NCBI RefSeq assembly: GCF_002355395.1
Contig: NZ_AP017315.1
Span: 186,001-250,000 of the forward strand
Source: Microcella alkaliphila
Lineage (GTDB): Bacteria; Actinomycetota; Actinomycetes; Actinomycetales; Microbacteriaceae
Direction: 5' to 3'
DNA: 64,000 nt
Under the pieces are notes generated by a model. It made no database searches, was not told the DNA's origin, and saw nothing but the letters and a program-made list of their open reading frames with translations. The stretch's first letter is position 1. The number at the start of each line of letters is the position of its first letter. A program made the position numbers and the translations under genes. Positions 3,102-28,153 of this stretch are shown piece by piece.

Positions 3102-3106
3102 CCGGC

Positions 3107-6634: not shown

Positions 6635-6636
6635 CG

Positions 6637-9957: not shown

Positions 9958-10012
9958 ACCACCCAGAGCGCTCATCCCGCCCACCCATCCACCCGAATCG
10001 AAGGAGATCCAC

Positions 10013-10534
10013 GTGGGAACAACAACAGCGGAAGCGACAGCGCCCGCGCCATCCGCCGGAGATCTCGCCCGAGTCATCCGGGCGATCTTTCCGCACGACA
10101 ACCTGGCGGACGGACCCTACCTCCGCTCCGCACAGGCCATCCTCGTCGCCGTCACGAGTTCGCCGCATCAGCAGGGGGTCGTCGAGGAAGGGCTGCGCAG
10201 CCTCCAGTCCCTCGCCGGCGGTGAACTGGGCAAGGTCGGCGTCGATGCGCTGAGCGACATCCTGCAGCGCCTCCAGCACACAGAGTTCTTCCGGACCCTG
10301 CTGACGAGCAGTGTCGTCACCCTCTACAGCGACGCCGACACGTGGGAGCTCCTCGGCTATGAGGGTCCGTCATTCGACAAGGGCGGCTACCTCAACCGGG
10401 GCTTCGCCGACCTCGACTGGCTACCGGAACCGAGGATCACCGAGTACGACGGCGAGCCTCTCTTGGAGTACTCCCCACCGGTGCCCGGCATTGACGTGGC
10501 ATTCAACGAGATCAAGAAGGCGGCCGCGAAATGA
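10013..10534 (+). CDS. Gluconate 2-dehydrogenase subunit 3-like protein
   Basis: This 173-residue protein resembles the small (gamma) subunit family that accompanies GMC-type gluconate and other sugar dehydrogenases. Supporting segments are LRVIRAIFPHDNL-like N-terminus, the middle DILQRLQHTEFFRTL, and WELLGYEGPSFDKGGYL. The following GMC gene starts inside its stop codon (ATGA), the usual arrangement for the pair. It begins with GTG after AAGGAGA. Most relatives carry a twin-arginine signal; none is seen here, so this complex probably stays in the cytoplasm. No cytochrome c subunit follows. Confidence 0.75.
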   Translation: MGTTTAEATAPAPSAGDLARVIRAIFPHDNLADGPYLRSAQAILVAVTSSPHQQGVVEEGLRSLQSLAGGELGKVGVDALSDILQRLQHTEFFRTLLTSSVVTLYSDADTWELLGYEGPSFDKGGYLNRGFADLDWLPEPRITEYDGEPLLEYSPPVPGIDVAFNEIKKAAAK

Positions 10535-12096
10535 GCACCATCGCATACGACGACGAAGCCGTCGTCATCATCGGCTCCGGTGCCGGCGGGGGCACACTCG
10601 CATACGAACTCACAGCCAAGGGCATCCCCGTCGTACTTCTTGAGGCCGGTCCCTACATTCGCAACGAGGAGTACGTCAACGACGAGTGGGAGTCGTTCAG
10701 CCAGCTGGCCTGGACCGACCCGCGCACGACCTCCGGATCCTGGCGGATCGCGCAGGACTTCCCGAACCTTCCCGCCTGGATCGTGAAAGCGGTCGGCGGC
10801 TCCACGACGCACTGGTCGGGCGCAACCCCGCGGTTCAAGGCTCACGAGTTCAAAGCCCGCACGGCATACGGGCACATCGACGGCTCGAGCCTGCTGGACT
10901 GGCCGATCGACCTCGACGACCTCGCCCCCTACTATGATCGCGCCGAGATCGCGATGGGCTCAACGCATCGCCACGGTCGCAAGCCTCTCCCCGCGAACAA
11001 CAACTACAAGGTGTTCGCCGAGGGGGCCAAGCGCGTCGGCTACAAGCACTACGCGACGGGGCCGTACGCGACGAACGCGGAAGAGTACGACGGGCGTCCC
11101 GCGTCAATCCAGGACGGCTTCAACTTCCAGGGCGACAAGAACAGGTCGAAGTGGAGCATCCTCGTCCGGGAGATCCCTCGCGCTGAGGCCACGGGCCTTC
11201 TCGACCTGCGGCCGGACTCGCAAGCGATCCGCATCACACACGACGCCAAGGGCCGCGCCGACGGAGTCCTCTATCTGGACGCCAGCGGGGCGCTGCACCG
11301 TCAACGAGCACGCCTGGTCGCCGTTGCTGGCAACTCCATCGAAACCCCCAGATTGCTCCTGCTGTCCGAGTCACCGCTGTTCCCCGACGGTCTCGCCAAT
11401 TCCTCCGGACAGGTCGGGCGGAACTACATGCGGCACATGACGGGCTCGACCTACGCGCAGTTCGACGACCCGGTCCGCTTCTACCGCGGCGAAACGATGG
11501 CAGGCCTCATCGCAGACGAGTCCGTGCACGACACCAGCCGCGGATTCTCCGGTGGCTACTACATGGAGACGATCGCACTCGGTCCCGCGTTCCTGGCGAA
11601 GTTCCTCACTCCCGGCGCATGGGGGCGAGACTTCACATCGTTCATGGATGCCTACGCCCGAACCGCCGGGATGTGGCTCGTCGGGGAGGACCTGCCACAG
11701 GAGACCAACCGGGTAACCCTCGACGCAGCCGTGAAGGACAAGAACGGCCTGCCTGTCGCGAACGTCCACTTCGACGACCATCGCAACGACGTGACCATGC
11801 GCGAACACGCGTACACCCGCTCCGCTGAGCTCTACGAGGCAGTCGGCGCCACCCGCACACACCGCACTCCTCCCTACCCTTCGACTCACAATCTCGGCAC
11901 CTCACGGATGAGCACGAAGCCCACCGAGGGCGTCGTCGACAAGTGGGGCCGAGCCCATGACGTGCCCAATCTGTTCATCAGCGACGGCTCGGTGTTCACG
12001 ACCGGCGCCGCCGCCAACCCCACACTTACCATCGTCGCCCTTGCCATCCGGCAGGCCGACTACATCGCCGACAAGCTCGCCAAGCACGAGCTGTAA
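10531..12096 (+). CDS. GMC family FAD-dependent oxidoreductase
   Basis: This 521-residue glucose-methanol-choline oxidoreductase has the N-terminal FAD motif [11 protein letters not shown] (about residues 11-21) with LLEAGP after it. It also has [16 protein letters not shown], and the C-terminal signature [17 protein letters not shown] with a conserved His in THNLGTSRM. It most resembles the flavoprotein subunit of gluconate 2-dehydrogenase and related sugar or polyol dehydrogenases. It overlaps its partner small subunit by 4 bp. No signal peptide is visible. The electron acceptor is unclear because no cytochrome gene is adjacent. The neighbouring zinc dehydrogenase and the ED-type genes suggest a sugar-acid or polyol substrate. 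Confidence 0.88.
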
Positions 12097-12116
12097 CAAA
12101 GAATGGAAGAACCCTC

Positions 12117-12647
12117 ATGACCACTCCCTACGATGCAATCGCCGAAGTACCGGCCTTCACCGTGACCAGCACGGACATCCCGGCCGACGGCGCGCGACTG
12201 CGTTCCCCGCAGGTCAGCGGCATCTTCGGCGCCGGCGGAGAGGATGTCTCACCCCAGCTGAGCTGGAGCGCCTTCCCGCCCGAGACCAAGAGCTTCGTCG
12301 TCACCGTGTACGACCCCACGGCCCCCACCGGCAGCGGCTTCTGGCACTGGGCGGTCGCCGACATCCCAGCCCACGTCACCGAGCTTCCCGCAGGCGCAGG
12401 AGACGCGGAAGGGTCAGGCCTACCCGAAGGCGCATGGCAACTCGCGAACGACGCCGGACTCAAGCAGTACCTCGGCGCAGCACCTCCCAAAGGCAGCGGC
12501 AAGCACAAGTACTACATCGCGATCCATGCCCTCGACGTCGAGACCCTTGGAATCGACCCCTCCGCCACTCCTGCGTTCCTCGGATTCAATCTCTCCGGAC
12601 ACACCCTCGCACGCGCCGTGATCACGCCCTGGTGGGAGGCGGTTTAG
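12117..12647 (+). CDS. YbhB/YbcL family (PEBP-like) protein
   Basis: This 176-residue protein matches the phosphatidylethanolamine-binding/Raf kinase inhibitor-like family: [52 protein letters not shown] and a YYIAIHALD segment line the anion-binding pocket in relatives. Biochemical role is unknown for most bacterial members. It is 20 bp after the GMC gene and likely in its operon. Its 3' end overlaps the minus-strand toxin-like frame by about 26 bp. Confidence 0.9.
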
Positions 12648-13103: not shown

Positions 13104-13489
13104 TTTGCGAACAGCCAGTGGCCCCTGCCGACCTAACGCTGGTACGACGAAGGTGTACCGCCCGGGGCTCGCGAGAGGCGATCTCCCGTGTGCGCTGCTC
13201 GGAGGCCCCCTTGCTTCGCTCACACGGACCACGAGCGGGAACGCAATCGTCCACGACAAGTGGTCAGCGCTGCCCTATGCCTGCCAACTGCCTGCGGCAA
13301 CTGTAAGTTCGCGTGAAACTTACAGATGTGTAGGTTTCCGCCCAAGATGGCGAGGATGCCGGGATTCGGCCCAGCGCGTCGCGCTGACCAGCGCTGCAGG
13401 ACGTTGCCGCCGATCTGTAGCGACTCGCCGTGTAGACACGGCGTCACCTGCGTGACAGACTGCTCTGTTCTGCCTGAAAGGGGGCACCC
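13104..13489. other. Gene-free stretch with one hairpin
   Basis: These 386 bp hold no convincing gene. A perfect 9-bp inverted repeat CTGTAAGTT / AACTTACAG at 13301-13309 and 13317-13325 has a 7-bp loop. It lies between divergent genes, so it may be an operator. The end near 13480 carries AAAGGGGG, the ribosome site of the next gene. Confidence 0.45.
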
Positions 13490-14031: not shown

Positions 14032-14838
14032 GTGAGTGAGTACTCGTGGTTCGACTTTGATCAGGTCGACTTCGTCACCGCTGACTCCCACTTCAGCCAT
14101 GCCCGGATCAGCGAGCTCGCGGAACGCCCGTTCACGAGCATTGAGGAGATGAACGCCGAGCTGATCCGCCGGTGGAACGAAACGGTCGGCCCGTCCGATG
14201 TGGTGCTGCACCTCGGTGACGTGGCGCTCGGCCCGATCGAGGAGTCGATCGGTCTGACCGCGCACCTGAACGGCCGCCGCTACCTGGTGCCCGGCAACCA
14301 CGACCGGGTATCGCCGGCCACCCAATCCAAGAACGCGATCGAACGCTTCGCGCCGCTCTACGAGGCGGCGGGGTGGACCATCCTCCCGGAGGTCATCGAA
14401 GGCACCCGCGGCGGGTACCGGATCCTCGCCTCCCACTACCCCTACAAGGGCGACTCTCAGGAGTCGGACCGACACACCACCCACCGGCCCCGCTGGGACG
14501 ATGGGATCCCGCTGCTGCACGGCCACACCCACGCCCGCGACCACGGCCCGAACGGACACGAGTTCCACGTCGGCGTCGACGCCCACGGCTACGCCCCCCT
14601 CCCGTTCACCGTCATCGACGCGTGGATCCGCACACTGCGCGACGTCGAGCCGTGGCTCGAGGTGGCGATCCGTGAAGCCCGTGAGGTCATCGCGGACCTC
14701 GACGCCACCGAAACCTCGAACTCCGACACGATGTTCTACCTGATGGGCTACAACGAGCTGCGGACCGCACTCGAGGAACTCCTCAGCGCGCTCGAGTCTT
14801 CTCACCCCAACCCGCCCCCGAACCTGACCCAGGGCTAG
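14032..14838 (+). CDS. Calcineurin-like metallophosphoesterase
   Basis: This 268-residue protein carries all the metal-binding motifs of the superfamily in order: ADSHFSH, LHLGDVALG, VPGNHDR, ASHYPY and LHGHTHARDH. These coordinate two metal ions for phosphoester hydrolysis. The substrate is unknown. The closest resemblance is to small stand-alone phosphoesterases common on phages and mobile elements. It starts with GTG after GAGGGGGA. Its 3' end overlaps the oppositely read small gene at 14783 by 56 bp. It could be cargo of the Tn7-like element or a housekeeping remnant. Confidence 0.88.
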   Translation: MSEYSWFDFDQVDFVTADSHFSHARISELAERPFTSIEEMNAELIRRWNETVGPSDVVLHLGDVALGPIEESIGLTAHLNGRRYLVPGNHDRVSPATQSKNAIERFAPLYEAAGWTILPEVIEGTRGGYRILASHYPYKGDSQESDRHTTHRPRWDDGIPLLHGHTHARDHGPNGHEFHVGVDAHGYAPLPFTVIDAWIRTLRDVEPWLEVAIREAREVIADLDATETSNSDTMFYLMGYNELRTALEELLSALESSHPNPPPNLTQG

Positions 14839-15214
14839 GACTGCAGCTTCGGCGCGTCTCGGGTGGCTTTGGCATGAACAGTTCACCTGCCGCGGGGCCG
14901 GATCGGAGGGTCCGGGGCTCGCGTCGAAAGCGGATCCATCCGCGGCGGCGCCAGTGGACCATCGTCAGGTATCGCACCGAGGGCGACATCCACGCATCCT
15001 GGTGCGCCTGAGCATCCCGGTCCTGCGTAGCGAGCTCGGTGAACACTTCCCGGAAGGTCGGTGCCCGACCGTGCTCCCTCGTGTAGCGGTGGATGAACTT
15101 CACCGCGCGACGCGCCCAAACGGGCGCCGTATCGTCAGCGGTGAGCTCCGTGAACAGCGGGGCCAGGTGCGGCGCCGACCACGGCTTGTCCTTCCACCCG
15201 GCGTCGTTCCACAC
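14783..15214 (-). CDS. Hypothetical protein with winged-helix-like segment, last gene of the tns operon
   Basis: This 143-residue protein starts with GTG after a strong GGAGG. The middle FIHRYTREHGRAPTFREVFTEL resembles the first helices of a LexA-type winged helix, followed by a tryptophan- and arginine-rich stretch (HWRRRGWIRFRREPR). The last 30 residues are low-complexity and overlap the phosphoesterase gene on the other strand. It follows the tniQ-coupled small gene by 45 bp in the same direction, so it is probably transcribed with the transposition genes. Its function is unknown. Confidence 0.6.
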   Translation of the reverse strand: MWNDAGWKDKPWSAPHLAPLFTELTADDTAPVWARRAVKFIHRYTREHGRAPTFREVFTELATQDRDAQAHQDAWMSPSVRYLTMVHWRRRGWIRFRREPRTLRSGPAAGELFMPKPPETRRSCSPSPGSGSGAGWGEKTRAR

Positions 15215-15259: not shown

Positions 15260-15469
15260 TCAGGACCGGTGGCGGGCGTCGTTGGATGTGTGCTGCGCGT
15301 CGGCGGGAGGGGCAAGCTCGTCGCTCTGATCTCGCAGCGGGGCGGGGCTCGTCGACGGTTCCGCATCCATCACCGCCTTCAGCGCCGTGGTGTACTTCTC
15401 TCCTGTCGCCTTCATGCGTTCCCGGGCTGCGTGCTGCAGCCGGCGAGAGGTTCGCTTCTTCTCAGTCAT
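15260..15469 (-). CDS. Small basic protein coupled to tniQ
   Basis: This 69-residue frame starts with ATG overlapping the tniQ stop (ATGA), with GAAGGA upstream, so it is probably translationally coupled. The N-terminal half (KKRTSRRLQHAARERMK, TGEKYTTALKAV) is basic and helical and resembles a short motif seen at the ends of many small actinobacterial accessory proteins. The C-terminal half is disordered. No function can be assigned. A longer frame back to 15658 lies inside tniQ and is not coding. Confidence 0.6.
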   Translation of the reverse strand: MTEKKRTSRRLQHAARERMKATGEKYTTALKAVMDAEPSTSPAPLRDQSDELAPPADAQHTSNDARHRS

Positions 15470-17685
15470 GATGCGTCCTTCGTCTGTCCGGCGTTCGGGT
15501 ACTCGTCGATCACTCGGCTGAGATACGGCGACCGAGTCCACGGCGGGGCGGGGCGCCTGCGGGGCGAGCATGAGGATCGGTCGGTGCGCGCGCCCCCACG
15601 CGGTCGGACTGCGATGCCGGCGGCGTGCAGGTGCCGGTTGATGGTCATCTCGCTGCATCCGGCGCGCTGCGCGATCTGCGCGATGGTGAGGTGCTGTGTC
15701 TCATAGAGATCGCGCAGCCAGTGGAGATCGAAGTTGAAGGTGCGGGGCCGTCCTCGTCGCGTCCGCGTACCCGCGTCGGCGAGGATGCGGCCAACGGTCT
15801 GCCGGGACACTCTCGTTTCCGCGGCGATCTCGTACGTCGTGGCTCCCGCCGCGTACGCCTGCGCCAGCTGATCTGGGGTCATGGCGTCTGCGGCCGTGGC
15901 CCGCGCCGGGCGGCTGGGCGGCCACGATGCCGGCCGGATCTGAGGACCGTCTTCCGGGAGCTGATCGACGGGTTCGGGCGTCCAGGCGACTGGCTCCTGG
16001 ATGCCGTTGGCGACGAGGAACTCGGCGGAGATCTGGTCGAGTTGCGCCCGCACCGCTGCGGGAAGCTCCTCGGCGAATCGTGCGACGGCGGGCGGGCTCA
16101 CCCTTGCTGCGTCCCACCCCGATGGCATCGCGCGCAGCGGATTCCCGGAGAGTTTCTGGTACAGGAACGCACGTGCCAGGCGCCATCGACGTCCACTCCC
16201 GGGTGACACCCCCGCCTCCCGGCACAGCCGCCCCCACTCGGATTCGGGCAATAGTTCGGTGTAGTCGAGATGTCGACGTCGGGTGTAGTCGATCGGCACG
16301 TCGTGGGTGTCCAGGAACGCAGCCAGCCGCAGCATTGCATGCAACGTGTCGGCGTCGTGCAAACTGCGGCCAAGCTCGCGCATCACATGAGTCACCCGCC
16401 GTGAGGGGGCATGCGGATCGAGCAGCGCAAGAGCTGCGGAGTGGGTCAGGCGGGTGCCGGTGAAAACGACCGCAGCTGCCAACGCGGACGCCGCGATCTC
16501 GTTCTCGACCCGCAGCGGGGCATAACGGCTGATCCAGTCGACCCACAACTGCGCGGGCACTTTCCGCGCTCGCTCCGCCGGGCCGACCCCGGACGCCGGT
16601 GCGGACTGCAGGAACACGGTGGGTCGGCGGCGACGACCCAGCGCCGCCGCGATCAGGGTCTGCAACTGCGGAGTGTGCGCGGTGTACGACGTGCTCTGTG
16701 CCAGCCGCCCCTGCAGCAGGGTGCGGACCGCGTCCGGATCAGTCAACGCACCGTGGCCGAGCGTGGTACCGACAGCGGCGCCCACGGCGGAGTCCGGTCG
16801 CGCCCGGATCGCCGTCGTCCAGTCCTCGCTCGTCTTGAACAGCCCCACAAGTTCCTGCCCGAGTGGGCCGGTGTCGATGCTGTCGCCGTCGACGATCGCG
16901 TCCCGGGCGGTACGGGCCAGGAGCCGAACATCTTCCAGCACCGGCACGGCTGGCTGCGGTGCGTCCGCATAGATCCCGAACCGCGCCTGACCGGTGGAGA
17001 CGATCCGCATCATCGCCCGCTGCGCATCCAGCACCGCCTGCGGCACAGGGGTGCGGGTCGTGTCCACGGTGAGGTCTGCGCGACACCGGCTCGCCTGCGG
17101 ACCCCTCCGCGGACCCACGACGGGGTTGTGGCACCTGCCCGGAGCTGGGACGAGCGCAAGCGGGTGCGCACGATGGCGGGCGGGCAGATCACAGGCGGGG
17201 CACCGATCGACCAGCAGGCGACGGTGGCGAGGACAGGCGAACCCGAACGGAAACTGCCACGACATCCGCCACCGCCCACCTGAGTCGGTGAGGCACTCCG
17301 GGCAGTAACGCCCCGCGGTCCCTCCCGCGGGGCACCGCGCGCTGATCCGTCCCTGCCGGGTGTACCGGATCGCGTGATGCGCGAACCGCATCCTCGTCAT
17401 CTCCTGGAACTGACCCGCCGGGATCCCGGTCGACGCCTCGAGCCGGGCGGCCTGCTCATCGGTCAGCGCCGTGGCCCACCCGTCCGCCATCCACGCGGTC
17501 GTCGAAACAGCCGAACCCTTCCTCTGCTCGATCAGACCAAGCGCGCATGCCATCTCATTCATCGTCGCGCCATAGGTGGCCGCCATCACTTCCAGCCACG
17601 AGTCGAACGGCTCATCCGGCAGCGGCCGCACCCGAAACGGCAGTACTCGCACCTCGTCAGAACGCGTTGCGGTCGTCTTGCTCAT
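15466..17685 (-). CDS. tniQ: TniQ/TnsD-family target-selection protein
   Basis: This 739-residue protein has the N-terminal TniQ domain (LPFRVRPLPDEPFDSWL), a zinc-binding set (C118, C128, C131, C151, H154, C162, C165, with YCPEC, CPRHRRLLVDRCPAC), and a long C-terminal extension. The extension ends with two helix-turn-helix units (TYEIAAETRVSRQTVGRIL and TIAQIAQRAGCSEMTINRHL) at about residues 600-690. In Tn7-like systems TniQ/TnsD proteins pick the target DNA and recruit the AAA regulator. The length and extra DNA-binding units suggest a TnsD-like protein that reads a specific attachment site, not a short CRISPR-type TniQ. It overlaps tnsC and the next small gene by 4 bp each. Confidence 0.88.
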   Translation of the reverse strand: MSKTTATRSDEVRVLPFRVRPLPDEPFDSWLEVMAATYGATMNEMACALGLIEQRKGSAVSTTAWMADGWATALTDEQAARLEASTGIPAGQFQEMTRMRFAHHAIRYTRQGRISARCPAGGTAGRYCPECLTDSGGRWRMSWQFPFGFACPRHRRLLVDRCPACDLPARHRAHPLALVPAPGRCHNPVVGPRRGPQASRCRADLTVDTTRTPVPQAVLDAQRAMMRIVSTGQARFGIYADAPQPAVPVLEDVRLLARTARDAIVDGDSIDTGPLGQELVGLFKTSEDWTTAIRARPDSAVGAAVGTTLGHGALTDPDAVRTLLQGRLAQSTSYTAHTPQLQTLIAAALGRRRRPTVFLQSAPASGVGPAERARKVPAQLWVDWISRYAPLRVENEIAASALAAAVVFTGTRLTHSAALALLDPHAPSRRVTHVMRELGRSLHDADTLHAMLRLAAFLDTHDVPIDYTRRRHLDYTELLPESEWGRLCREAGVSPGSGRRWRLARAFLYQKLSGNPLRAMPSGWDAARVSPPAVARFAEELPAAVRAQLDQISAEFLVANGIQEPVAWTPEPVDQLPEDGPQIRPASWPPSRPARATAADAMTPDQLAQAYAAGATTYEIAAETRVSRQTVGRILADAGTRTRRGRPRTFNFDLHWLRDLYETQHLTIAQIAQRAGCSEMTINRHLHAAGIAVRPRGGARTDRSSCSPRRRPAPPWTRSPYLSRVIDEYPNAGQTKDAS

Positions 17686-18839
17686 GCGGCGGCCGCCCCG
17701 CCGTCATGGTTCTTGCGGCGGCGTGCTCTCTGGTTTCGAAGTTGCTGTTCCAGCTTCGCCTCGAGCTCGCGGCGTTCCGTCTCGGCGCCTTCATCGATGC
17801 GGATGTCGTCGAGCAGTTCCCGGTCGATGGCCTCTCGCCCGGTGCGGATCGCCCGGGATGCGCCGCGACGAATCAAGTCCATCAAGGATCCGATGTTGCC
17901 GGTGGTCCGGGCGAACAGGTATCGGGACAGGTCGACCAGCATGCCGGGGCGGGCGTCGGTGAGGACGAGGGCTTGTTCGATGCCGAACAGCAGCCGGTCC
18001 CACTCCTCCCTTGCTCGTTTGTGGGTGAGGGTGAACGGGCTCAACCCGAGCACGGTCCACCGGCGGAAGGTCTGCGCCATCGCCGCCTCCTTACCGGTCT
18101 CCCCTTCACCGACCAGGCCGCGGGCGCGAAGAGCGACACCGGCGAACAAGAAGGTTGCGTTGTACTCGTTAGCGAGCCACTTCAGCTGGTTCGCGACCTC
18201 GACCCCGTCGCGGGTGCGCATGTTCAGGAAGTGCAGGTCGTCGACGATCACCAGGCGGGTGTCGTGGCGTTCGATGCACTCCGCTGCCGCCCGCGCCAGA
18301 TCTCTGCCCGCCATCGACCGGTGGAGGATGCCGGCGGTGGCGGGGTGGGCGTAGAAGCCGAGGATCATCATGTGCAGACCCTTGATCGTCAGCCTCCCCG
18401 TCAGCGTCACATGGCACACCGGCAGGTGCCGCACATCCCTGTCCGTGTCCAGCCAGTCCCCGGCCTCCGCGACCCGCTGCTGATGGAAGACACGACCAAA
18501 GTTGTTCACCACCGTCGACTTCCCCAATGCAGGCGGTGCGTCGATCGCCGCGGCGGACTTGACCCGGTCGGAGTCCTGCAGGTTGGAGTCGAGGATGTCC
18601 GCGAGCTGGAGCTCGATGTCCTCGACCTGTCGGGTGCGCAGCAGGATGTTCGCGTGCCACACCCGTCGCTCCAAGTCATATCCGGCCCGCTCGTGAGCGG
18701 GTAGCGCAGCGAGTTGCTCACGCGTGAGCTGTTCTGGGCGCGGCCGGGGTAGACGTTCGGCGAAGTCCTTCCACCCCTCATACGTGGACAGACTCCGCTG
18801 CCGCACCGAGAACTGCGGCTCAATGGTCGGAGTGGTCAT
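17682..18839 (-). CDS. tnsC: TnsC/TniB-family AAA ATPase transposition regulator
   Basis: This 385-residue ATPase is the transposition regulator of a Tn7-like system. The Walker A motif is APPALGKST (residues 101-109), Walker B is LVIVDD (196-201), and a sensor-like SRYLFARTTGNIGSL follows, with a basic C-terminal tail. The family bridges the target selector (TniQ) and the transposase (TnsB). It overlaps tnsB and tniQ by 4 bp each. The first Walker A residue is Ala where Gly is usual; this is common in TniB relatives and does not suggest inactivity. Confidence 0.9.
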   Translation of the reverse strand: MTTPTIEPQFSVRQRSLSTYEGWKDFAERLPRPRPEQLTREQLAALPAHERAGYDLERRVWHANILLRTRQVEDIELQLADILDSNLQDSDRVKSAAAIDAPPALGKSTVVNNFGRVFHQQRVAEAGDWLDTDRDVRHLPVCHVTLTGRLTIKGLHMMILGFYAHPATAGILHRSMAGRDLARAAAECIERHDTRLVIVDDLHFLNMRTRDGVEVANQLKWLANEYNATFLFAGVALRARGLVGEGETGKEAAMAQTFRRWTVLGLSPFTLTHKRAREEWDRLLFGIEQALVLTDARPGMLVDLSRYLFARTTGNIGSLMDLIRRGASRAIRTGREAIDRELLDDIRIDEGAETERRELEAKLEQQLRNQRARRRKNHDGGAAAA

Positions 18840-20989
18840 CGGAGCATCTCCATAGGGTCGAAGTGATAGTCCGACCGGATCATGGGATCGTCGATGTCGT
18901 CCGCATCATCGTCGTCCCCGGTCTCGGGTAGGTCGACCCGCCTGCGGGGATCGCGGACAGAACCGGTCAGCTCGGACGCGAGGTCAGATCCTGCGGTGAG
19001 CTCCGCGTCGAGCATCCGCTGCACGGTGCGCAGCGACCACACGCCCTCGGGGTCTGGGTTCTGCTCATCCAGCCGGGCTGCCATCCGGGAGCTCATCCGC
19101 CGCTCCGACGGGGTCAACCCACGGCCGGCGCCCCAGTCCTCGAGCAGCTGCGCGGCGACGTCGTCGACCTGGGAGGGGCGGCCCTGCCGGATCGCGATCT
19201 TCTTCGCATACTCCAGCGCGTCCAGGCTGAACGGCACATCGAACGCGCCCTTGTGCTCCCACTCGAGCGTGTGCCAAGTGTGATCTTCAGGGTCGTGGAA
19301 GTAGATCTTCGTCAGATCGTCCGGGTTCACCACGAACGGCCACTCCGTGCCCTTATCGCGGCGGATGGACCGGGCACGGTTGCGGTACTTCGCGACCGAC
19401 TCGCCGGTGTAGCGGAGCTTGTGGATCTCCACGCCATAGTGGTTGAACTGCCGCTTTACCACGGGGAGCAGCTCGAGGAGGACGTTGCGGTCAGTCGGCA
19501 GCCGCAGCCGGCCGGCCACGGCGACGCCCTGGTCGTAGCGTTCGGCGGGGCTCAGCTTCACACCCGGCAGGCTGGAGTCCTCAAGAGAGTCGTGCGGTCG
19601 GACGTGGTAGACGGTGGCGATCCATTCGCGGATGATCTGCTCCAGCTGCGGGACCGTGTAGACGGCTTCGCCTTCGACGTCCTCCCCCCGGCCAGACACG
19701 TCGGCGCCCTTGTATCCCGGGAGCTCCTGCAGGAACGTGTCGAGAGTCTTGAACAACCGCTCCACCGGGCTCTTGTCGGTCGGCTGGTAGATCCTCGCCG
19801 GCTGGATCGAGATCCCCAGACGGGCGCACGCACTGGTGACATGCTCGGACAGGTAGGGGGCGCCGTGGTCGACGATGATCGTCTCAGGCAGAATCCCGGC
19901 GCGCACGAACCGCGGAACCCTCGTCCTGGTCGGATCGACCAGCACGGTACCCGGGAGGCCGTGATAGGGCCATCGTGCGGAAGTGCCCCAGTCCGGCGGG
20001 GTGTCGAACGGCTGGCACGTCTCCATCAGCACCCCTGCGACGTCGATCGACTTGGTCGAACCGGGGGTGAGGCGCACGCCGAGGACACACCTCGAGTAAA
20101 GGTCCATCGCCACGGTCAGGTCCGCGCACACCCACTTCCCCGTCACCGGGGCGACCGCGAATACGTTCAGCGGGGTGGTGTCCATCAGCACGTACTCGCC
20201 CGGCCTCGTCGCAGACAGTCGCCCGTAGGGTGCCGGTGGACGATTCGCGTTGGATCGCTTGCGTTTCGTACTGCCCGTGAAGGTGGCCAGACCGCGGCTG
20301 AGCTCGTCGAGGATCTTGTAGGCGGCGCTGCGAGATGGCTCCGACACCACACCCGGCCCGTGGGTACGCTCGACGCGCGCGTGGACGCGGCCGATGATGA
20401 CACTCTTTGCGACCTTCGACTCCGCTGTCTGCTCGTCGATCACCTCTCGCGCCGCCGTCACCCACCGGTCATCGAAGTTCACCAACGACATCCCCGGCTG
20501 GGCGCTGCGGCAGTCCACCATCCCCACTTCACCAGCGTCCTTGTACTGAGCGACCCACCGTGCGATGGTCCGTCTTCCCTTCCCGAGTTCGACGGCTTTC
20601 GCGGCGACCCGTTCGCTCAGGCTGCGTGAGGGATGGAATTCGAGGCGTGGTTCGCCCTCGCGGGCGATGTCGTTCGTGCCGGACTTGTACCCGGTAAGCA
20701 CTTCACGGATGTGATCGGACCGTTCCGCGGACCTCGCCTTGACGGAGTCGGTCGCATCCGACCAGATCACCGCCAACGGTGTCCCCTGTTCCTCCTCCCG
20801 GGTGCGGCCGGGAATGTGGGCTCGACCGCCCTCGTTCGGCGGTCGCAGCACATCCACCATTCGCAGGCGGCGCGACCGGCCGGCCCGGTCGCGGGTGATG
20901 ATGGCACCATCGCAGATCTCCACGATGGTGCACGGCTCACCGTCGTAGACGAGATCCGATCCGGCCTGCAGCGTCCATGTCGTGCTCAT
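18836..20989 (-). CDS. tnsB: TnsB/TniA-type DDE transposase
   Basis: This 717-residue transposase has an intact DD(35)E triad: Asp270 (VLMDTTPLN), Asp374 (IIVDHGAPY) and Glu410 (DKSPVERLF), in an RNase-H fold, after winged-helix DNA-binding domains that contain TIARWVAQYK, and followed by the beta-barrel and acidic C-terminus. The acidic end (DDDDADDIDD) resembles the C-terminal hook that binds TnsC. The ATG at 20989 follows AGGAG; an in-frame codon at 21013 gives an 8-residue extension without support. The first 50 residues are matched by the preceding small gene. Confidence 0.93.
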   Translation of the reverse strand: MSTTWTLQAGSDLVYDGEPCTIVEICDGAIITRDRAGRSRRLRMVDVLRPPNEGGRAHIPGRTREEEQGTPLAVIWSDATDSVKARSAERSDHIREVLTGYKSGTNDIAREGEPRLEFHPSRSLSERVAAKAVELGKGRRTIARWVAQYKDAGEVGMVDCRSAQPGMSLVNFDDRWVTAAREVIDEQTAESKVAKSVIIGRVHARVERTHGPGVVSEPSRSAAYKILDELSRGLATFTGSTKRKRSNANRPPAPYGRLSATRPGEYVLMDTTPLNVFAVAPVTGKWVCADLTVAMDLYSRCVLGVRLTPGSTKSIDVAGVLMETCQPFDTPPDWGTSARWPYHGLPGTVLVDPTRTRVPRFVRAGILPETIIVDHGAPYLSEHVTSACARLGISIQPARIYQPTDKSPVERLFKTLDTFLQELPGYKGADVSGRGEDVEGEAVYTVPQLEQIIREWIATVYHVRPHDSLEDSSLPGVKLSPAERYDQGVAVAGRLRLPTDRNVLLELLPVVKRQFNHYGVEIHKLRYTGESVAKYRNRARSIRRDKGTEWPFVVNPDDLTKIYFHDPEDHTWHTLEWEHKGAFDVPFSLDALEYAKKIAIRQGRPSQVDDVAAQLLEDWGAGRGLTPSERRMSSRMAARLDEQNPDPEGVWSLRTVQRMLDAELTAGSDLASELTGSVRDPRRRVDLPETGDDDDADDIDDPMIRSDYHFDPMEMLR

Positions 20990-21009
20990 AATCGCTCTCC
21001 TATTTGGTG

Positions 21010-21423
21010 TCACGCCGCCTGCGGCGGGGTGGTCTCGGGTGCAGTGAACAGGTGAACGACCGGCCGCGCCGGAACACTGCGACGATCGACTCGCTCGCCG
21101 AAAACTTCGTGGGCATACTCGTCGACATCGTGCAGGTACGCGACCGCTCTCTCCCGATCAGTTGGCGCAGTGCGGCGCCTCGGGGGTGTCAGGCCAAGCG
21201 CCGCGCACGCCTGAAGGGTCGCGTCCGAGCACGACTCCACCGCCGACGCTGCGGGAGCCTTCCGCGTCGCGATGTCCTCGAGGACCTGCTCGGTCCAGAG
21301 GCGGCGGATGTGTCCGCCGCGATCTCGGACGACCACGGTTCCGCCCAGAACACGGACCACCGTGAAAGGTTCGCCTCGGTGGGTGAAGGTGCTCCCGCGG
21401 CGCAAGAGTTCGTGGCTGCTCAT
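21010..21423 (-). CDS. Small protein related to the TnsB N-terminal domain
   Basis: This 137-residue protein sits between tnsA (4-bp ATGA overlap) and tnsB (20-bp gap). Residues 7-50 line up with TnsB residues 6-49: both share a Gly-Ser, then GEP, then a T-x-V, then RDR-x-G, then RRL and a VL. A second match follows at the SDAT tetrapeptide in both. It therefore looks like a stand-alone copy of the TnsB head (about residues 1-105) that gained its own C-terminal tail (VVHLFTAPE). I do not know a named family for it. It could bind transposon ends, compete with or help TnsB, or adapt TnsA to TnsB. The start ATG at 21423 follows TTGGAG. Confidence 0.75.
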   Translation of the reverse strand: MSSHELLRRGSTFTHRGEPFTVVRVLGGTVVVRDRGGHIRRLWTEQVLEDIATRKAPAASAVESCSDATLQACAALGLTPPRRRTAPTDRERAVAYLHDVDEYAHEVFGERVDRRSVPARPVVHLFTAPETTPPQAA

Positions 21424-22142
21424 GTCGGCTCCAAGAGGGTTGTCGTGTTCAACAGGTGGGTGAGGTCCGTGCGCAGCTGCCTTGTCCACAGCAGATGCAG
21501 CACGAGGGAACGAGCGGCCCGCGGGTCACCCGCGATCGGGGCGGCGGCGCGTGCCGCTTCCCCGAACGTCATCGGAGTTCGCAGTTCGTCAATGACCGCG
21601 GCGATCTCCGCGTCGACGAACTGGAACCGGCGCCGGTATCCGGCGAGGAACTGCACATTGGCCAGCAGCACCCGGTCCGGTTCCGACTGCACCCGGTACT
21701 CCCACCCGTGCGCTTCGAACACGCGCCGCGACCACGACAACGAGTCCCGCACCTTCGGCAACTGCAGCTTCTCGGCAGGCTTCACATCCACCACGCACAC
21801 CGAGCCATCCGTGTGCGTGATGAGGTAGTCGGGGATGTGCTTGCGGGGCGTCCCCCGGTCGAGGCCTTCAATGAGGAAGGGCTGCGAGAGGATCCACTCC
21901 ACTCGGGGGTCGAAGTCAGTCAATAGGAGATTCGCGTACTCGAGTCGTGACTCGTACCCGACCGGGGCGTCCATCGTCGCCGACCAGTAGCTGCCGGAGA
22001 AGTGGCGTTGCTTCCTGTACCAGCGGAACACCCGCCACGGAACCGCCGTGTCGAACATGCGCAGCCGCACGTCCCCCAATGAGAAGACGTCGACGAGATC
22101 CTCCGACCTGCGGATCCGGACCATCGACGCCGGCCCGGTCAC
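21420..22142 (-). CDS. tnsA: TnsA-type endonuclease
   Basis: This 240-residue protein has the TnsA endonuclease core: Glu64 in YESRLEYANLL, Asp105 in KHIPDYL, and VDVK with Lys121, the E-D-(x)K arrangement of restriction-enzyme-like nucleases. A winged-helix-like C-terminal part (LRTPMTFGEAARA) follows. TnsA cuts the 5' ends of the element so that, with TnsB, it moves by cut-and-paste. GTG at 22142 (after GAAGG) or ATG at 22124 are possible starts; the frame to 22277 runs into non-conserved sequence. It is the first gene of the operon, next to the presumed right end. Confidence 0.85.
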   Translation of the reverse strand: MTGPASMVRIRRSEDLVDVFSLGDVRLRMFDTAVPWRVFRWYRKQRHFSGSYWSATMDAPVGYESRLEYANLLLTDFDPRVEWILSQPFLIEGLDRGTPRKHIPDYLITHTDGSVCVVDVKPAEKLQLPKVRDSLSWSRRVFEAHGWEYRVQSEPDRVLLANVQFLAGYRRRFQFVDAEIAAVIDELRTPMTFGEAARAAAPIAGDPRAARSLVLHLLWTRQLRTDLTHLLNTTTLLEPT

Positions 22143-22498: not shown

Positions 22499-22504
22499 AT
22501 GACG

Positions 22505-22819
22505 ATGGTTGAGCCGATCGCGCCGGAGGACTCCCGGCTGGTCTTCGGAAACAGCCACATGGTCACAGTCATGGTCGAGATCGCTTCGCTTCATGGCGAG
22601 ACATTCTCATCCAAGCTCATCGCCGACGCCACACGCCTGTCTCCCGGCATCGTGCACCCCCTCATCCAGAAGCTGCTACGCGCGAAGTTCATCGAGTTCG
22701 TCGAACGCGTCCCGGGGGAACGGACCATCCTTTACCGCGTTCGAGAGAACCCATGGTGGGAGGCCGCGAGCCAGTACACACGGGATCGCGAAGCCACCGA
22801 CCGGGCGCAAGCAAGCTGA
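22505..22819 (+). CDS. Small winged-helix DNA-binding protein
   Basis: This 104-residue protein has one winged-helix domain: MVTVMVEIASLHGETF, then SKLIADATRLSPGIVHPLIQKLL as the recognition unit, then FIEFVERVPGERTILYRV as the wing. The ATG at 22505 is favoured because AAGGA lies 7 bp upstream; an ATG at 22499 is too close to that site. It is divergent from tnsA across the gap that holds the palindrome, so it may control the tns operon or itself. It converges with the large ATPase gene, with 24 bp between. Confidence 0.75.
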   Translation: MVEPIAPEDSRLVFGNSHMVTVMVEIASLHGETFSSKLIADATRLSPGIVHPLIQKLLRAKFIEFVERVPGERTILYRVRENPWWEAASQYTRDREATDRAQAS

Positions 22820-22843: not shown

Positions 22844-25800
22844 TCAACCGGGGTCCGCACTGCCCTCGTCTAGCGGGTGCCTCATCCACACGCGAGTGTT
22901 GTGCGGGTCTGCTGTCCACGACGAAACCGGCCCTGCCCCGTCCGCCTCAAGCACATCCAGTGTCGGCGCAAAATCGGGCGAGGCTGGGATATCGACGTAC
23001 CCGCGGTTGCGCTCCACGAGGCGCGAGTAGGGCTCAGGTAGAGCACGGACGTGAGCGACAACCGCTTCGAATCCCAGGCTTGCCGCGCTACTACTGAGCA
23101 CCGCGACCTTTGCGCGGGTCGCAGCCGCCTGATTGTGGATGACCTGGACGGTGTCGGCGGGGAACACGAAGGGTCTGACCTGCGCCCACTCGCCCAGCGC
23201 TTCTGCAACGTCCACGCCTTGCCATGCAGGATTGCCCGGAAGATTCTCGGCGATCGCGACCTTGATCTCGTCGGGAACGTGCGGGTTGCCGACCAGGCGC
23301 GCCAGGAGTGGCTCGCTGAGGGTCAGCGACAGGAAGTACTCGGTCACGGTGGGGGACGTGGCGACGAACGCCTCCTGCGCCGCGACCGAGCGGGCAAGCG
23401 TGTTGAAGGTGTTGGCGTTGTCGTCGAGCAGGCTTGCGCGCATCAGCGCGGCGATCAGCTCTGGTTCCCGGGACGTCTCCCGGGTCACCTGCACGATGTC
23501 GACCAGCTGCCCCACGAGGCGGACCCGTACATCCACGGTCAGCTCACGCTCGTTCACGATCGCCGCGGCCAACGAGTGCCGTTGGCCCACGTCCGCATCC
23601 GTCGGGACCTCAAGGTCTGGAGAGGCTTGAAGGTAGGAAACCAGTTGGTCATCGGGTGCCCGGTCGCTGATGTAGCTGGTCACGTTCGCGAAGGTGAGCG
23701 GGAACCGGCCCCCCGCGGCCAGCGTCGCGAGCACATCCTCGGGCACATCATGGATGTCATCGACCCGGAGCTCTCGGGGCATCCGCTTCTCCACGTCGAT
23801 GGATCGTCCAGGCGCGGCGCGCTCGACCGCGGACATCACCTCGACGATCATCTCCGCGGCGGAGACGCTCGGCCGTTGGGTCTCATCGAGCACGGCCAGG
23901 TAATCGTCGAAGAAATGCATGACGTGGTCGAAGGTCGGATCATCCAAGTTCAGGATCGTGTCCAGCGAGATGTTCTCGCCCTCGCCGACGGCCACCTCGA
24001 GGTTGGCTGTGGTCACGTCATACTGGCGTGCTGCGATCACCGCCTCCTGCGCCGAGCGAGACAGTCCGTCCAGAGCGGGGAGGCGGACGCCGAGGCGTTG
24101 CAGCGCTGCCACAGCCCGCTGTGGTGAACGAGCGGGATCGACCAGCTCGGGCACGTCCAGGCGCGTCGCGGCGATCGTTCCTTTCACCGGGTCCGACAGG
24201 TGGTAATCCAGCTCCGGGTCCACCCCGCAGAAGGCAGCCGTTACGAGGGAGTCCTTCACCTCGAGCAGGTCAGCAAGGTCCGCCTCGAGGAAGTCGAAGA
24301 TCGCGGTCCAGTGAGGAGCGAGCCTTCGGACGAGGTTCGTTGGGTCGGCGCCCTGCCGCAGGTAGGCCTTCAGGAACGCGACGCCCTCGGTGTTCCCCGT
24401 GGCGAGCAGCCGCACGTTCGTGTCAAGTCGCGCGTCGTCATCGGCAAGGAGATGATCGTAAATGGCAACGTTGAAGATGCCGATGGACTCGAAGACATGC
24501 TCGCCACCCATCGACAGCACCGTGATGACTTCGTCCGCGGAGAGTGGAAAGTTGGTGTCCGGGCTCTCGGTCTGCAGGTGCTGGACGACATAGGTCATCG
24601 CTCTTGCGGACGCGACGACACCATAGAACTGCGACGCGTAGAGCGGGTAATTCCGATCAAGCCGGCCGTCACAGACCAGATCGGTGAGAAGCGGGTCACG
24701 GACGACGGTCGCCTTCACCCAGGCGGCGAAGTCGACGTCCTCCCCGTCCAGTTCCAGCGGAATCCGCGGTTCGGCTAAGTCGACGAAGTCGGCTGTGCGA
24801 AGCCATTGCTGATCCTGGCGGATCTTCTCGATCGCCCGATGCGAATCCCCGGACGCGCGTGCTATCCAGCTGGTGGGGACCAACGAGCCGAGGTCATCGC
24901 GCAGATCCGATGCGCTGAGGGTGAACGCGGCATCCGAGGGGTCGCGGATCTCGACCGGCCGACCGGAATCTATCGCTGCCTGCCAGAACTCAACCGTCAT
25001 GACCTCGTTGATCGTCCACTGCCGTCCGGCAATCCAGTACGTCACATCGTGTGAACGGCGGCCCATCCGTAGAAGCCAGCGTTCCACGATGCGCTGCAAG
25101 GCCGCGCCGAGTTGCTCGGCACGATCCGTCGTCGCGACATGAGGCACCTGCGAGGCCTCAAGCTCTGCGAGTGAGTCTGCGAGGGTCGCCAGTCCCGCGG
25201 TGATGATGCGCCGCGACCGTCGGTAGATCGTGTCCAAGACGCTCGCGCCCACGCGAATCTGCTCGAAGTCCTGCAGGTGGGTGTTCTTGTAGGCGACGAC
25301 AGCGAACAGGCCGCTCGGGGTGAGGCCGCGCAGGGCGCCGGGGGCGATGATGCGCGCGCGGAACACCCGATACTCGTTGGCGATGTTGTGCAGAAGTCGC
25401 ATGTCGGTGACGTGCTTTGCGACAACGCGGATCACATCGAAGGACACCTCAGGGTCGATCCTCCGCATCATCTCGGACAGCAGGTCCGCTGAAGAGCGGT
25501 GCGTGATGAACGGGACGATCGGGATGACAAGCTCGAAGAACTTCGTCCTCTGCGTCGCCGGCTCCGACAGCACACGATCCGCCTGCCATACACCCGGGTC
25601 CACGTCCGTGGCGCCGGGAGCTTCCTCACCCGCGCGCTTGCGGCGCGCTTCCTCCAGGTCCTCGAAGATGCTGTCCCGCACCGCATAGATGAAGTGGACC
25701 GGCCTGTTGCGTAGCTGGCCGGAGGAGTTGAGCAGCGTATTCAGCTCACGCAGCGACGCATAGATGCTCGGGTCTTCGAAGCGGTCCAGGTCCTCGATGA

Positions 25801-26506
25801 CCACGACATCGCGCCCGGTCATCTCGAAGAAGTAGACGATCTCATCGAGGTACTCGTCGAAGTAGCTGCCCTCAGCGTCACCGGTCAAACTCACGGACGT
25901 CGCCGCGGTGCCGAGTTTGTCGATCCTCACCCTGTTCGAGAGCAACACCTGCGCAGTGAAGGCAGCGGCGGCCGAGATCAGACCGATCACAGCCAGGATC
26001 ACGGGACGACGCCACTCCTCGTCCGGGCCCAGCTGCAGCGGTGCACCCCAGCCCGTGACCCAAAACACCGCGACAACCAGCACTCCCATCAGAACGGATG
26101 TCAGCGCCGCGCGCCGTTTCGGCAGTCGACTGATGCGCCGGAAGCGAGACCCGGGCACCCTGCTCGGGCGCTCACGGTACAGAAGCTGCTTGACAATCTC
26201 CTTCTGGATGTAGTTCGTAAGCTCGTTGCTCTGCTTGTCGAACGGCTGCACGCCGACATCGCTCAGCGACGACAGCGAGATCTCCACAACCCTCGCCGGC
26301 AGCCGATCACGTACTCCCGCCAGAACGCTGCTCTTCCCGCTCCCATAACCACCGGTCAGAGCAATGTTCCACACGCGCGCACGACGTGGGTCATCCTCGA
26401 GCAACGAGACAAGCTCGTCGCTGTACATCTGGTGCTGCTCGGCCACATGCTCCGGCACCAACGGCACCAGACCAAGGCCATCCCTACTCGACACCGCGTC
26501 CGACAT
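22844..26506 (-). CDS. YobI-like membrane-associated P-loop NTPase
   Basis: This 1220-residue protein has an N-terminal P-loop domain with Walker A GGYGSGKS (residues 52-59) and Walker B VVVIEDLDRFED near residue 240. Two adjacent hydrophobic segments (about 130-155 and 167-190) sit inside the NTPase region, as in KAP/YobI-type ATPases, which are membrane-tethered. The 800-residue C-terminal part is helical and repeat-like without a recognised catalytic motif. Relatives have been proposed to act in conflict or defence systems; that role here is inference, supported only by location on an accessory island beside a transposon. ATG at 26506 (GGAG upstream) is preferred over GTG at 26509. Confidence 0.7.
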   Translation of the reverse strand: MSDAVSSRDGLGLVPLVPEHVAEQHQMYSDELVSLLEDDPRRARVWNIALTGGYGSGKSSVLAGVRDRLPARVVEISLSSLSDVGVQPFDKQSNELTNYIQKEIVKQLLYRERPSRVPGSRFRRISRLPKRRAALTSVLMGVLVVAVFWVTGWGAPLQLGPDEEWRRPVILAVIGLISAAAAFTAQVLLSNRVRIDKLGTAATSVSLTGDAEGSYFDEYLDEIVYFFEMTGRDVVVIEDLDRFEDPSIYASLRELNTLLNSSGQLRNRPVHFIYAVRDSIFEDLEEARRKRAGEEAPGATDVDPGVWQADRVLSEPATQRTKFFELVIPIVPFITHRSSADLLSEMMRRIDPEVSFDVIRVVAKHVTDMRLLHNIANEYRVFRARIIAPGALRGLTPSGLFAVVAYKNTHLQDFEQIRVGASVLDTIYRRSRRIITAGLATLADSLAELEASQVPHVATTDRAEQLGAALQRIVERWLLRMGRRSHDVTYWIAGRQWTINEVMTVEFWQAAIDSGRPVEIRDPSDAAFTLSASDLRDDLGSLVPTSWIARASGDSHRAIEKIRQDQQWLRTADFVDLAEPRIPLELDGEDVDFAAWVKATVVRDPLLTDLVCDGRLDRNYPLYASQFYGVVASARAMTYVVQHLQTESPDTNFPLSADEVITVLSMGGEHVFESIGIFNVAIYDHLLADDDARLDTNVRLLATGNTEGVAFLKAYLRQGADPTNLVRRLAPHWTAIFDFLEADLADLLEVKDSLVTAAFCGVDPELDYHLSDPVKGTIAATRLDVPELVDPARSPQRAVAALQRLGVRLPALDGLSRSAQEAVIAARQYDVTTANLEVAVGEGENISLDTILNLDDPTFDHVMHFFDDYLAVLDETQRPSVSAAEMIVEVMSAVERAAPGRSIDVEKRMPRELRVDDIHDVPEDVLATLAAGGRFPLTFANVTSYISDRAPDDQLVSYLQASPDLEVPTDADVGQRHSLAAAIVNERELTVDVRVRLVGQLVDIVQVTRETSREPELIAALMRASLLDDNANTFNTLARSVAAQEAFVATSPTVTEYFLSLTLSEPLLARLVGNPHVPDEIKVAIAENLPGNPAWQGVDVAEALGEWAQVRPFVFPADTVQVIHNQAAATRAKVAVLSSSAASLGFEAVVAHVRALPEPYSRLVERNRGYVDIPASPDFAPTLDVLEADGAGPVSSWTADPHNTRVWMRHPLDEGSADPG

Positions 26507-26556
26507 CACTCACTCCAGATCAAAGACACGGACACGGTCGACGGTGTCCACGGCAC

Positions 26557-26583
26557 TTGGCACAAATGCCAAATGCATGCCAA
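26557..26583. promoter_or_regulatory. TTGGCA/TGCCAA repeat upstream of the YobI-like gene
   Basis: TTGGCA at 26557-26562 is followed by its inverse TGCCAA at 26567-26572 and by a second TGCCAA at 26578-26583. The cluster sits in the 125-bp gap between the end of dnaB and the start of the ATPase gene, where that gene's promoter must be. An operator is likely; the factor is unknown. Confidence 0.4.
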
Positions 26584-26631
26584 CTACCCGTGGAAAATGC
26601 CATCTTCGCGTGGAACCTACACGGCCAGCCG

Positions 26632-28017
26632 CTACACCCGCGGCATGTCGGCGAAGCGCGAGAGGTGGCCCTGAAAGGCGACCGTGATGGTGTCGGTCGG
26701 GCCGTTGCGGTGCTTCGCGACGATGAGGTCGGCCTCGCCGGGGCGGGCGCTCTCTTTGTCGTAGGCACTGTCGCGGTGCAGGAGGATCACCATGTCGGCG
26801 TCTTGCTCGAGCGACCCCGACTCGCGCAGGTCGCTGATCGCGGGCTTCTTGTCGGCGCGCTGCTCGGGCCCGCGGTTCAGCTGCGAGAGGGCGACGACCG
26901 GAACCTGCAGTTCTTTCGCCATCAGCTTCAGGGCCCGCGAGAACTCGCTGACCTCCTGCTGACGCGACTCGACGCGCTTGCCGCTGGTCATGAGCTGCAG
27001 GTAGTCGATCACGACCATTTTCAGCCCAACGGTCTGCTTCAGGCGCCGACACTTGGCGCGAATCTCGACGAGCGTCATGTTGGGGCTGTCATCGATGTAG
27101 AGCGGAGCGTCAGCGATGCGGCCGCGCGTGGCGGCGATCGCCGTCCAGTCGCGACCCTCGAGCGTTCCCTTGCGCATCGCGTGCAGGGGAATCGACGCCT
27201 CGGCGGACAGCAGGCGCATCGCGATCTCGCTGCGCCCCATCTCGAGCGAGAACACGATCGTCGGCTGCTGATGCTTGATGGCGGATGCGCGGGCCAGGTC
27301 GAGCGCGAGCGTCGACTTACCGAGTGCGGGTCGCGCCGCGATCAGGATGAGCTGTCCGCCGTGCAGGCCATTCGTCAGCTGATCGAGGTCGGCGAACCCC
27401 GTGGGCACCCCCGTCATCTTGCCGTCGAGGCCCTTCGCTGCCTCGATCTCGTCGATGGCTTCGCCGACCGCCTGCGTGAGCGGCACGTAGTCTTCGGACT
27501 GCGTGCCCCCGGCCACGCCGTAGATCTCGGCCTGTGCGTTGTTCACGAGGTCGGTGACCTCGCCCTCGGAGGCATAGCCCATCTGCACGATGCGGGTGCC
27601 GGCCTCGACGAGTCGACGCAACACGGCCTTCTCGGCCACCAGGGAGGCGTAGAAGCCAGCGTTGGCCGCGGTCGGCACGAGCCCGGTCAGGGTGTGCAGG
27701 TAGTCGGCGCCGCCGGCGCGGGTCAGGTTGCCGGTCTTCGTGAGTTCGTCGGCGACCGCGATGACGTCGGTGGGCTCGCCGTGTGAGTACAGCGACATGA
27801 CGGCGTCGAAGATGATCTCGTGCTTCGGCACGTAGAAGTCGATGCCGCGAACAACCTCGATCACGTCGGCGACGGCGTCTTTACTGAGCAACATGCCGCC
27901 GAGGGCGCTCTGCTCGGCAAGGAGGTCGTGCGGGGGAGTGCGCTCGGCGCGACGCTCACCCTCTCGACCATCACCCGCGCGCGGATCGATGGCGGACGAG
28001 ATGTGGGCAATCGACAC
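26632..28017 (-). CDS. dnaB: Replicative DNA helicase
   Basis: This 461-residue hexameric helicase unwinds DNA at the fork. The N-terminal domain (HDLLAEQSALGGMLLS) and the RecA-like domain are both present: Walker A ARPALGKST, Walker B MVVIDYLQLM, LSQLNRGPEQR and DLRESGSLEQDAD. There is no intein, although many actinobacterial dnaB genes carry one. The GTG at 28017, preceded by AGGAAGG, gives the usual N-terminus; the frame to 28083 adds a weak extension. It is read alone after the rplI operon, behind a 418-bp gap. Confidence 0.96.
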   Translation of the reverse strand: MSIAHISSAIDPRAGDGREGERRAERTPPHDLLAEQSALGGMLLSKDAVADVIEVVRGIDFYVPKHEIIFDAVMSLYSHGEPTDVIAVADELTKTGNLTRAGGADYLHTLTGLVPTAANAGFYASLVAEKAVLRRLVEAGTRIVQMGYASEGEVTDLVNNAQAEIYGVAGGTQSEDYVPLTQAVGEAIDEIEAAKGLDGKMTGVPTGFADLDQLTNGLHGGQLILIAARPALGKSTLALDLARASAIKHQQPTIVFSLEMGRSEIAMRLLSAEASIPLHAMRKGTLEGRDWTAIAATRGRIADAPLYIDDSPNMTLVEIRAKCRRLKQTVGLKMVVIDYLQLMTSGKRVESRQQEVSEFSRALKLMAKELQVPVVALSQLNRGPEQRADKKPAISDLRESGSLEQDADMVILLHRDSAYDKESARPGEADLIVAKHRNGPTDTITVAFQGHLSRFADMPRV

Positions 28018-28153
28018 GGAGGAGCCTTCCTGTTGGCGGGGTGCAACCTGTATACGCGCGAGCACCGACACACGCGTGAGCACACACGGCGAGGTCTCGG
28101 GGTCGACGACGGTTCACCCTAGGGACGCGTCGCTCCGCCCCTCAAATACCCCC

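Follow-up and report, generated by a model that had tools for sequence, protein, structure and literature searches.

A TnsB-head paralogue encoded between tnsA and tnsB in a Tn7-like transposon at the dnaB gene of Microcella alkaliphila

Tn7 systems are under tight control and serve as tools for genome editing. To our knowledge, classical Tn7 has no small protein related to the head (N-terminal part) of its transposase TnsB. Tn7 and the Tn7-like elements of the TnsABC+TnsD branch are the systems closest to the transposon analyzed here, which was found in a 64,000-nt stretch of Microcella alkaliphila (“the window”; coordinates are window positions unless prefixed G000). The Microcella element shares with them the order of tnsA, tnsB, tnsC, and a tniQ/tnsD-like gene, TGT...ACA inverted ends with repeated putative TnsB sites, a 5-bp duplication, and insertion at a fixed distance from the end of a conserved gene. 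However, it carries an extra gene between tnsA and tnsB, and its target is dnaB rather than glmS, the target of Tn7 according to the available part of PMC2918618. The N-terminal segment of Escherichia coli Tn7 TnsB (PDB 7pik, residues 1–53) is also among the closest known systems. Tn7706 of Rhodococcus erythropolis, compared here by description and not by sequence, is an actinobacterial Tn7-like element with tnsA, tnsB, tniB, and tniQ, and the accessible portion of its text makes no mention of a small gene (PMC12915292).

The extra gene encodes a protein of 137 amino acids (aa) and, judged from sequence comparison, goes back to a single, old duplication of part of tnsB, its 5′ end. Residues 1–48 of the small protein align with TnsB at 42% identity (E 6e-9), a search of the whole genome with TnsB returns the small open reading frame (ORF) as the only other match (40%, E 3.6e-4), and profile-profile comparison of the two proteins gives a probability of 96.7% over residues 1–54. 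Because the pairwise, whole-genome, and profile-profile matches agree, the resemblance of the heads is not due to chance. The predicted strands of both heads fall in one register (12–15, 18–26, 29–33/34, and 39–43, with a helix from residue 44), and for the small-protein head the prediction is a small SH3-like barrel. The available portions of three TnsB structure papers describe no comparable N-terminal barrel. An earlier note, made from the window sequence alone, had proposed that this gene is a TnsB-head paralogue, and these comparisons bear it out. The note had also pointed to a later ‘SDAT’ in both proteins, which was rejected as homology because it is present in only 2 of 24 family rows (P0001 and P0005) and because the tail profile does not match TnsB residues 50–165 (probability 0.1%).

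Members of the small-protein family were collected by an alignment-based search that returned 24 proteins at E 0.1 or better, including the query, among the 8000 best candidates scored; the alignment holds 24 rows, namely 22 of these proteins together with P0006 and P0008. The head is present in half of the rows (12/24) and absent from the other 12. Head-less proteins have 97–105 aa and retain the tail, which has a helix around EYLREVFG, and approximately ten residues from the start. Tyrosine Y103 is kept in at least 90% of the aligned rows, all frames are open throughout, and the tail-only forms have diversified. For the tail, Pfam and NCBIfam searches gave nothing over the cut-off, PHROG matches were weak (E 0.005 or worse), and hits to PDB sequences had E values no better than 0.05. 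A fold search of the PDB found nothing at E 0.001 or better. The possibility that the tail is another copied piece of the element was rejected because no credible match was found in any frame; the best protein-level match to the rest of the element has E 0.023, and the best DNA match is 31 nt at 84% (E 2e-4) in an NTPase gene near the right end.

The sequence common to the small protein and TnsB could suggest that the small head competes for, or assists, the binding of TnsB to the transposon ends, as the earlier note had supposed. However, the common part lies outside the helix-turn-helix region of TnsB (sub-cut-off Pfam matches at residues 128–165), which has no counterpart in the small protein, and the head is predicted as a barrel. 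The small protein has no match to helix-turn-helix DNA-binding or DDE-core families, and the search for DNA-binding families gave nothing convincing, with one PHROG match to a DNA-binding-protein family at E 0.005 over residues 45–107. Competition for the ends was consequently rejected as the main explanation, and a role in end binding appears very improbable from these sequence features. Because the head lacks the DNA-binding parts and was discarded in evolution, a role as a mimic of end binding ranks last among the readings.

Small regulators that derive from a transposase and contain part of it are known from other elements. Tn5 Inh comprises most of the transposase, and the part common to the Mu repressor and MuA (domain I-alpha) binds DNA. 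The Microcella protein is likewise made from transposase sequence, albeit the head only; unlike in Inh and the Mu repressor, only a barrel without a helix-turn-helix is shared with the transposase. A helix-turn-helix as the common domain, as in the Mu repressor, was not found, since the shared part is a predicted barrel with no match to a helix-turn-helix family. MuA I-alpha, according to the available part of PMC3362531, is a winged helix that binds the enhancer.

The twelve small heads form a single clade in the head tree (99/99), which joins the TnsB heads of its own lineage at 92/84; this tree has 52 columns, a midpoint root, and a long branch leading to the small heads. The TnsB tree has 19 rows, and most of its forks have starred support. 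Gene-bearing rows (L044, L038, the window, and L041) are interspersed with the gene-less L042/L112/L043, L116, and L032–L037/L064 group, while four more distant rows and the other distant junctions are gene-less. The minimum on this tree is three changes, with a single gain and two losses; the losses would number three if the L042/L043 group split off later than the gain. A shuffle test on the tree was not significant (134/500). Because the head-bearing window element separates the head-less L038 and L041 types on the TnsB tree, the head was deleted at least twice, a count that follows this tree and assumes no recombination between elements.

Junctions between tnsA and tnsB were parsed by ORF position at 117 TnsB loci, many of which are one place represented twice. 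A family member is present in 14 of the 117 rows, from nine places that all belong to a Microbacterium-centred lineage: the window, L044, L041 (also L107), five places of the L038 type (L038 with L129, L039 with L111, L040 with L108, L045 with L110, and L109), and the broken L127. The small gene was not found outside this lineage among the surveyed junctions. Two further flagged rows (L017 and L083) are fragments of tnsA frames that are broken or overlap. BLASTP of the ORFs of L003–L066 against the small protein gave no further full relative; a single chance-level hit, in L006 (E 0.002), falls on a frame that lies upstream of tnsA. A separate tnsA is lacking in L028, L029, and L055, of which L028 (577–2124) and L055 (9029–12178) are natural TnsA-TnsB fusions in which the N-terminal part of TnsB follows TnsA.

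Among 366 Microbacterium genomes, TnsB was detected at E 1e-100 or better in 29, and the small-protein profile matches 16, nine by the gene itself and seven solely on account of TnsB heads; among these seven, G770 carries an orphan head in addition. In eight of the nine gene-bearing genomes the gene directly adjoins a TnsB head, and for the ninth, G1056, the contig stops ~250 bp downstream. The small gene was not found in plasmid and viral collections, and the viral contigs contain no close TnsB; within the family sample, none of nine other genomes of the window's genus has TnsB at E 1e-20. Close relatives with full-length tnsA, tnsB, tnsC, and tniQ and no small gene include L033, L034, L036, L043, and L064. 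The earlier note had held that absence from other intact copies would refute its proposal, and this applies in part, as these five copies lack the gene and two lines have lost the head and kept the tail. The intact gene-less relatives and head-less lines weaken the reading of the small protein as an essential component.

We tentatively favor the reading that the small gene is optional and that its product, docking by means of the tail, modulates the TnsA/TnsB complex at the protein level, with damping as a first guess for its effect. This proposal builds on the head homology, the single clade of small heads, the position of the gene, the head-less tail forms, the gene-less relatives, and the weak constraint described below. 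In this view, a single duplication would have placed a copy of the tnsB 5′ end (residues 1 to ~50) between tnsA and tnsB, and the duplicated head would have been joined to a helical tail. The overlap with tnsA and the short distance to tnsB make co-translation of the small gene with both probable. Its product may dock on a protein of the element, most likely TnsA or TnsB, via the tail and, where present, the barrel, which would imitate TnsB's own head, and docking would tune the amount of active complex formed. We infer the docking partner, the direction of the effect, and the tail as the working part; the place of the gene and its overlap point to the TnsA/TnsB complex as the partner. CvkR of the type V-K CRISPR-associated transposon (CAST) is likewise an element-encoded regulator of a Tn7-like system, a likeness drawn by description and not by sequence comparison; the accessible part of PMC9938897 presents it as a MerR-type transcription repressor. 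A bolder and more doubtful proposal is that the protein represents a new class of Tn7 accessory protein, in which a free-standing transposase head, born once by duplication, sets TnsAB activity, and an acquired tail then took over while the head was discarded at least twice. The free-standing head, its head-less descendants, and otherwise alike gene-less sisters offer a ready-made comparison for the function of the head and of an add-on regulator. Limited searches of the open literature found no recognizable report of a TnsB head as a protein on its own, nor of Tn7-like elements that use dnaB as their attachment site.

Selection on the small gene bears on a serious rival to this modulator, namely that the gene is a functionless partial copy of tnsB that is eroding, head first and then the rest. 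The ratio of nonsynonymous to synonymous substitution rates (dN/dS, Nei-Gojobori) is 0.41 between the window and L041, 0.48 for window-L038, 0.57 for window-L044, and 0.58 for L041-L038, estimates that are rough because dS is above 1 in these four pairs, and 0.75 for L044-L150, based on few changes. TnsB has 0.13–0.16 in the first four pairs. These higher ratios (0.4–0.75 overall), the two or three gene losses and two head deletions within one lineage, and a frameshifted copy in G1010 fit decay and weigh against a modulator. On the other hand, the ratios are below 1, the tail-only forms diversified while the frames stayed open and Y103 was kept across the 24 aligned proteins, and the G1010 element also has a broken tnsB. 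In a neutral simulation at 60% divergence, a 137-codon frame stayed open in 2% and the 78-codon tail in 12%. The small protein looks weakly constrained rather than free of constraint by these estimates, and decay seems a rather doubtful account.

The junctions themselves raise a second serious rival, that the frame is a translational spacer that couples tnsA to tnsB and sets the TnsA:TnsB translation ratio, with the protein mattering little. The small gene starts in an ATGA overlap with the tnsA stop, as in all four types read (window, L038, L041, and L044), and a 20-bp gap containing AGGAG, a short ribosome-binding-like stretch, separates it from the ATG of tnsB. Together with the weak protein-level constraint, this arrangement fits a spacer and again weighs against the modulator. 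However, the gene-less L043 and L046 group reach ATGA coupling directly, and a spacer leaves the conserved tail helix unexplained, which makes this reading unlikely. The gene order and the TnsA-TnsB fusions L055 and L028 are also consistent with an adaptor that links TnsA to TnsB, in which the small head would replace the TnsB head at the contact with TnsA. This seems improbable on sequence grounds, as the head was lost twice and most parsed operons have no small gene.

The modulator proposed above would act within an operon that has the typical Tn7-like gene set (Table 1), a TnsA-type endonuclease gene, a TnsB with a DDE triad, a TnsC-type AAA+ ATPase, and a TniQ-domain selector. All genes are on the minus strand in the order tnsA, 137-aa ORF, tnsB, tnsC, and tniQ. 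The earlier note had listed the four tns/tniQ genes in this order with intact catalytic residues, and the analysis agrees: the TnsB triad is invariant across 22 aligned TnsBs, and the TnsA motifs and TnsC Walker motifs were checked by eye in translation only. The tnsA product matches TnsA_like_Actin (NF033179) at 2.9e-69, with NF033179 and PF08722 both above their cut-offs; TnsC matches TniB (4.6e-7) and AAA_22 (2.6e-7), both over the cut-off, as is the TniQ family match (3.2e-18). A model of TnsB aligned to V-K and Tn7 TnsB structures with alignments starting at residues 66–81. A search for Pfam Mu-transpos_C across the genome gave no match at E 0.001 and was uninformative, as control genomes were likewise blank.

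Table 1. Features of the Microcella alkaliphila transposon and its attachment site (window positions).
Feature	Position	Strand	Remarks
Conserved 143-aa ORF 3′ of tniQ	14783..15214	-	LexA-like winged-helix look by eye
tniQ/tnsD-like	15466..17685	-	739 aa; TniQ domain and C-terminal helix-turn-helix matches ~607-690
tnsC	17682..18839	-	385 aa; AAA+/TniB
tnsB	18836..20989	-	717 aa; D270/D374/E410
TnsB head, residues 1-50	20840..20989	-	homologue of small-protein head
Small gene, 137 aa	21010..21423	-	between tnsA and tnsB
Small-protein tail, residues 56-137	21013..21258	-	predicted helices 62-75, 89-113; kept where head lost
Small-protein head, residues 1-50	21274..21423	-	homologous to TnsB head; predicted SH3-like barrel
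tnsA	21420..22130	-	236 aa; TnsA_like_Actin subfamily
Cargo adjoining right end	22844..26509	-	YobI-like P-loop NTPase; matches PADLOC Tmn
Inferred TnsB site R2	26578..26594	-	TCCACGGGTAGTTGGCA
Inferred TnsB site R1	26598..26614	-	TCCACGCGAAGATGGCA
Right end of transposon	26614..26621	-	TGTAGGTT
5-bp target duplication CGGCC	26622..26626	+	other copy just left of left end at G000:175137
dnaB	26632..28083	-	3′ end is attachment site
Internal end-like sequence	13329..13336	+	TGTAGGTT; without matching 5-bp duplication

The transposon is 37,485 bp long and is inserted at the 3′ end of dnaB with inverted ends and a 5-bp duplication. Its right end at 26621 reads TGTAGGTTCCAC..., 10 bp past the dnaB stop, and its left end is at G000:175137, 10,863 bp left of the window. 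The element begins 10.9 kb to the left of the window, ends at 26621, and is larger than the operon region that the earlier note had described. The TGT...ACA ends are inverted copies of TGTAGGTTCC, with CGGCC on both outer sides. The putative TnsB sites R1 and R2 were assigned by eye and by a sequence scan; extended to the window, the scan gave no information, with 43 matches at two or fewer mismatches against 42.7 expected. The nearest relative genome (96% in dnaB) has an uninserted site, with the flank resuming at G000:175125, which shows past insertion only. The internal end-like sequence at 13329 reads TGTAGGTTTCCGCCCAAGATGGCG and was rejected as the true left end, as it has no matching duplication and the flank of the nearest relative resumes ~37.5 kb away. 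DNA similarity to several relatives stops near 13427–13430, and position 13329 may mark where an older, smaller element, since enclosed by the present transposon, had its left end.

Insertion occurred 21–23 nt past a conserved GAYATG of dnaB, whatever the stop position, in 13 of 13 dnaB-adjacent ends. These ends comprise that of the window and those of 12 loci (L033, L036, L037, L040, L041, L042, L045, L057–L060, and L064), the ones with a detected dnaB among 36 searched (L032–L066 and L099); at the remaining 24, dnaB may be out of reach, another element may intervene, or the target may differ. The adjacent ends span Microbacterium, Streptomyces, and Actinacidiphila, and the C-terminal helix-turn-helix part of TniQ likely reads the dnaB site, judging from its domain matches. 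Both ends were compared at five other loci: the duplication is perfect in L056 (CATCC) and L058 (CCGGA), both from Streptomyces, and in L060 (CCTGT) from Actinacidiphila, in L059 it agrees after a shift of one base, and in L036 the two sides differ. In L040 (~4801–4831), the insertion lies within the last dnaB codons, and the in-frame stop is inside the transposon end. Two transposon ends lie a few bases apart in L038 (4814–4824) and L043 (16883–16889), representing tandem insertions at one site. In the available texts of the two large Tn7-like surveys PMC8649781 and PMC10293859, supplements aside, ‘dnaB’ is not counted, and DnaB appears as a negative control in the accessible part of PMC10991518. 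The dnaB attachment site, with its constant insertion distance, may serve site-specific integration in actinobacteria.

Several neighboring genes and rearranged loci were also observed. The 143-aa ORF following tniQ has no Pfam match. In L099 (Microbacterium hominis) and L091, tnsA is followed by a TnsB head (~62 residues) fused to a relative of this ORF, a fusion that apparently arose by deletion; tnsC, tniQ, and the rest of tnsB are absent from the 11 kb examined. Upstream of tnsA, a small, winged-helix-like ORF (22499–22819) with a Rrf2 match below the cut-off (0.0033) is a possible regulator candidate, and the DNA of this stretch matches many relatives, not including L041, L044, and L099. 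L043 and L053 are actinobacterial-type elements in metagenome-assembled genomes labelled Croceicoccus and Planctomycetota, and are probably mis-binned contigs. The NTPase adjoining the right end (1221 aa) matches PF20693 (4e-103) and PADLOC Tmn (1.3e-45) and is probably a Tmn-like anti-phage cargo, as suggested by these family matches. A second, catabolic cargo (575–12647) encodes a solute-binding protein, an IclR regulator, iron- and zinc-type alcohol dehydrogenases, a GMC oxidoreductase, and a PEBP-like protein.

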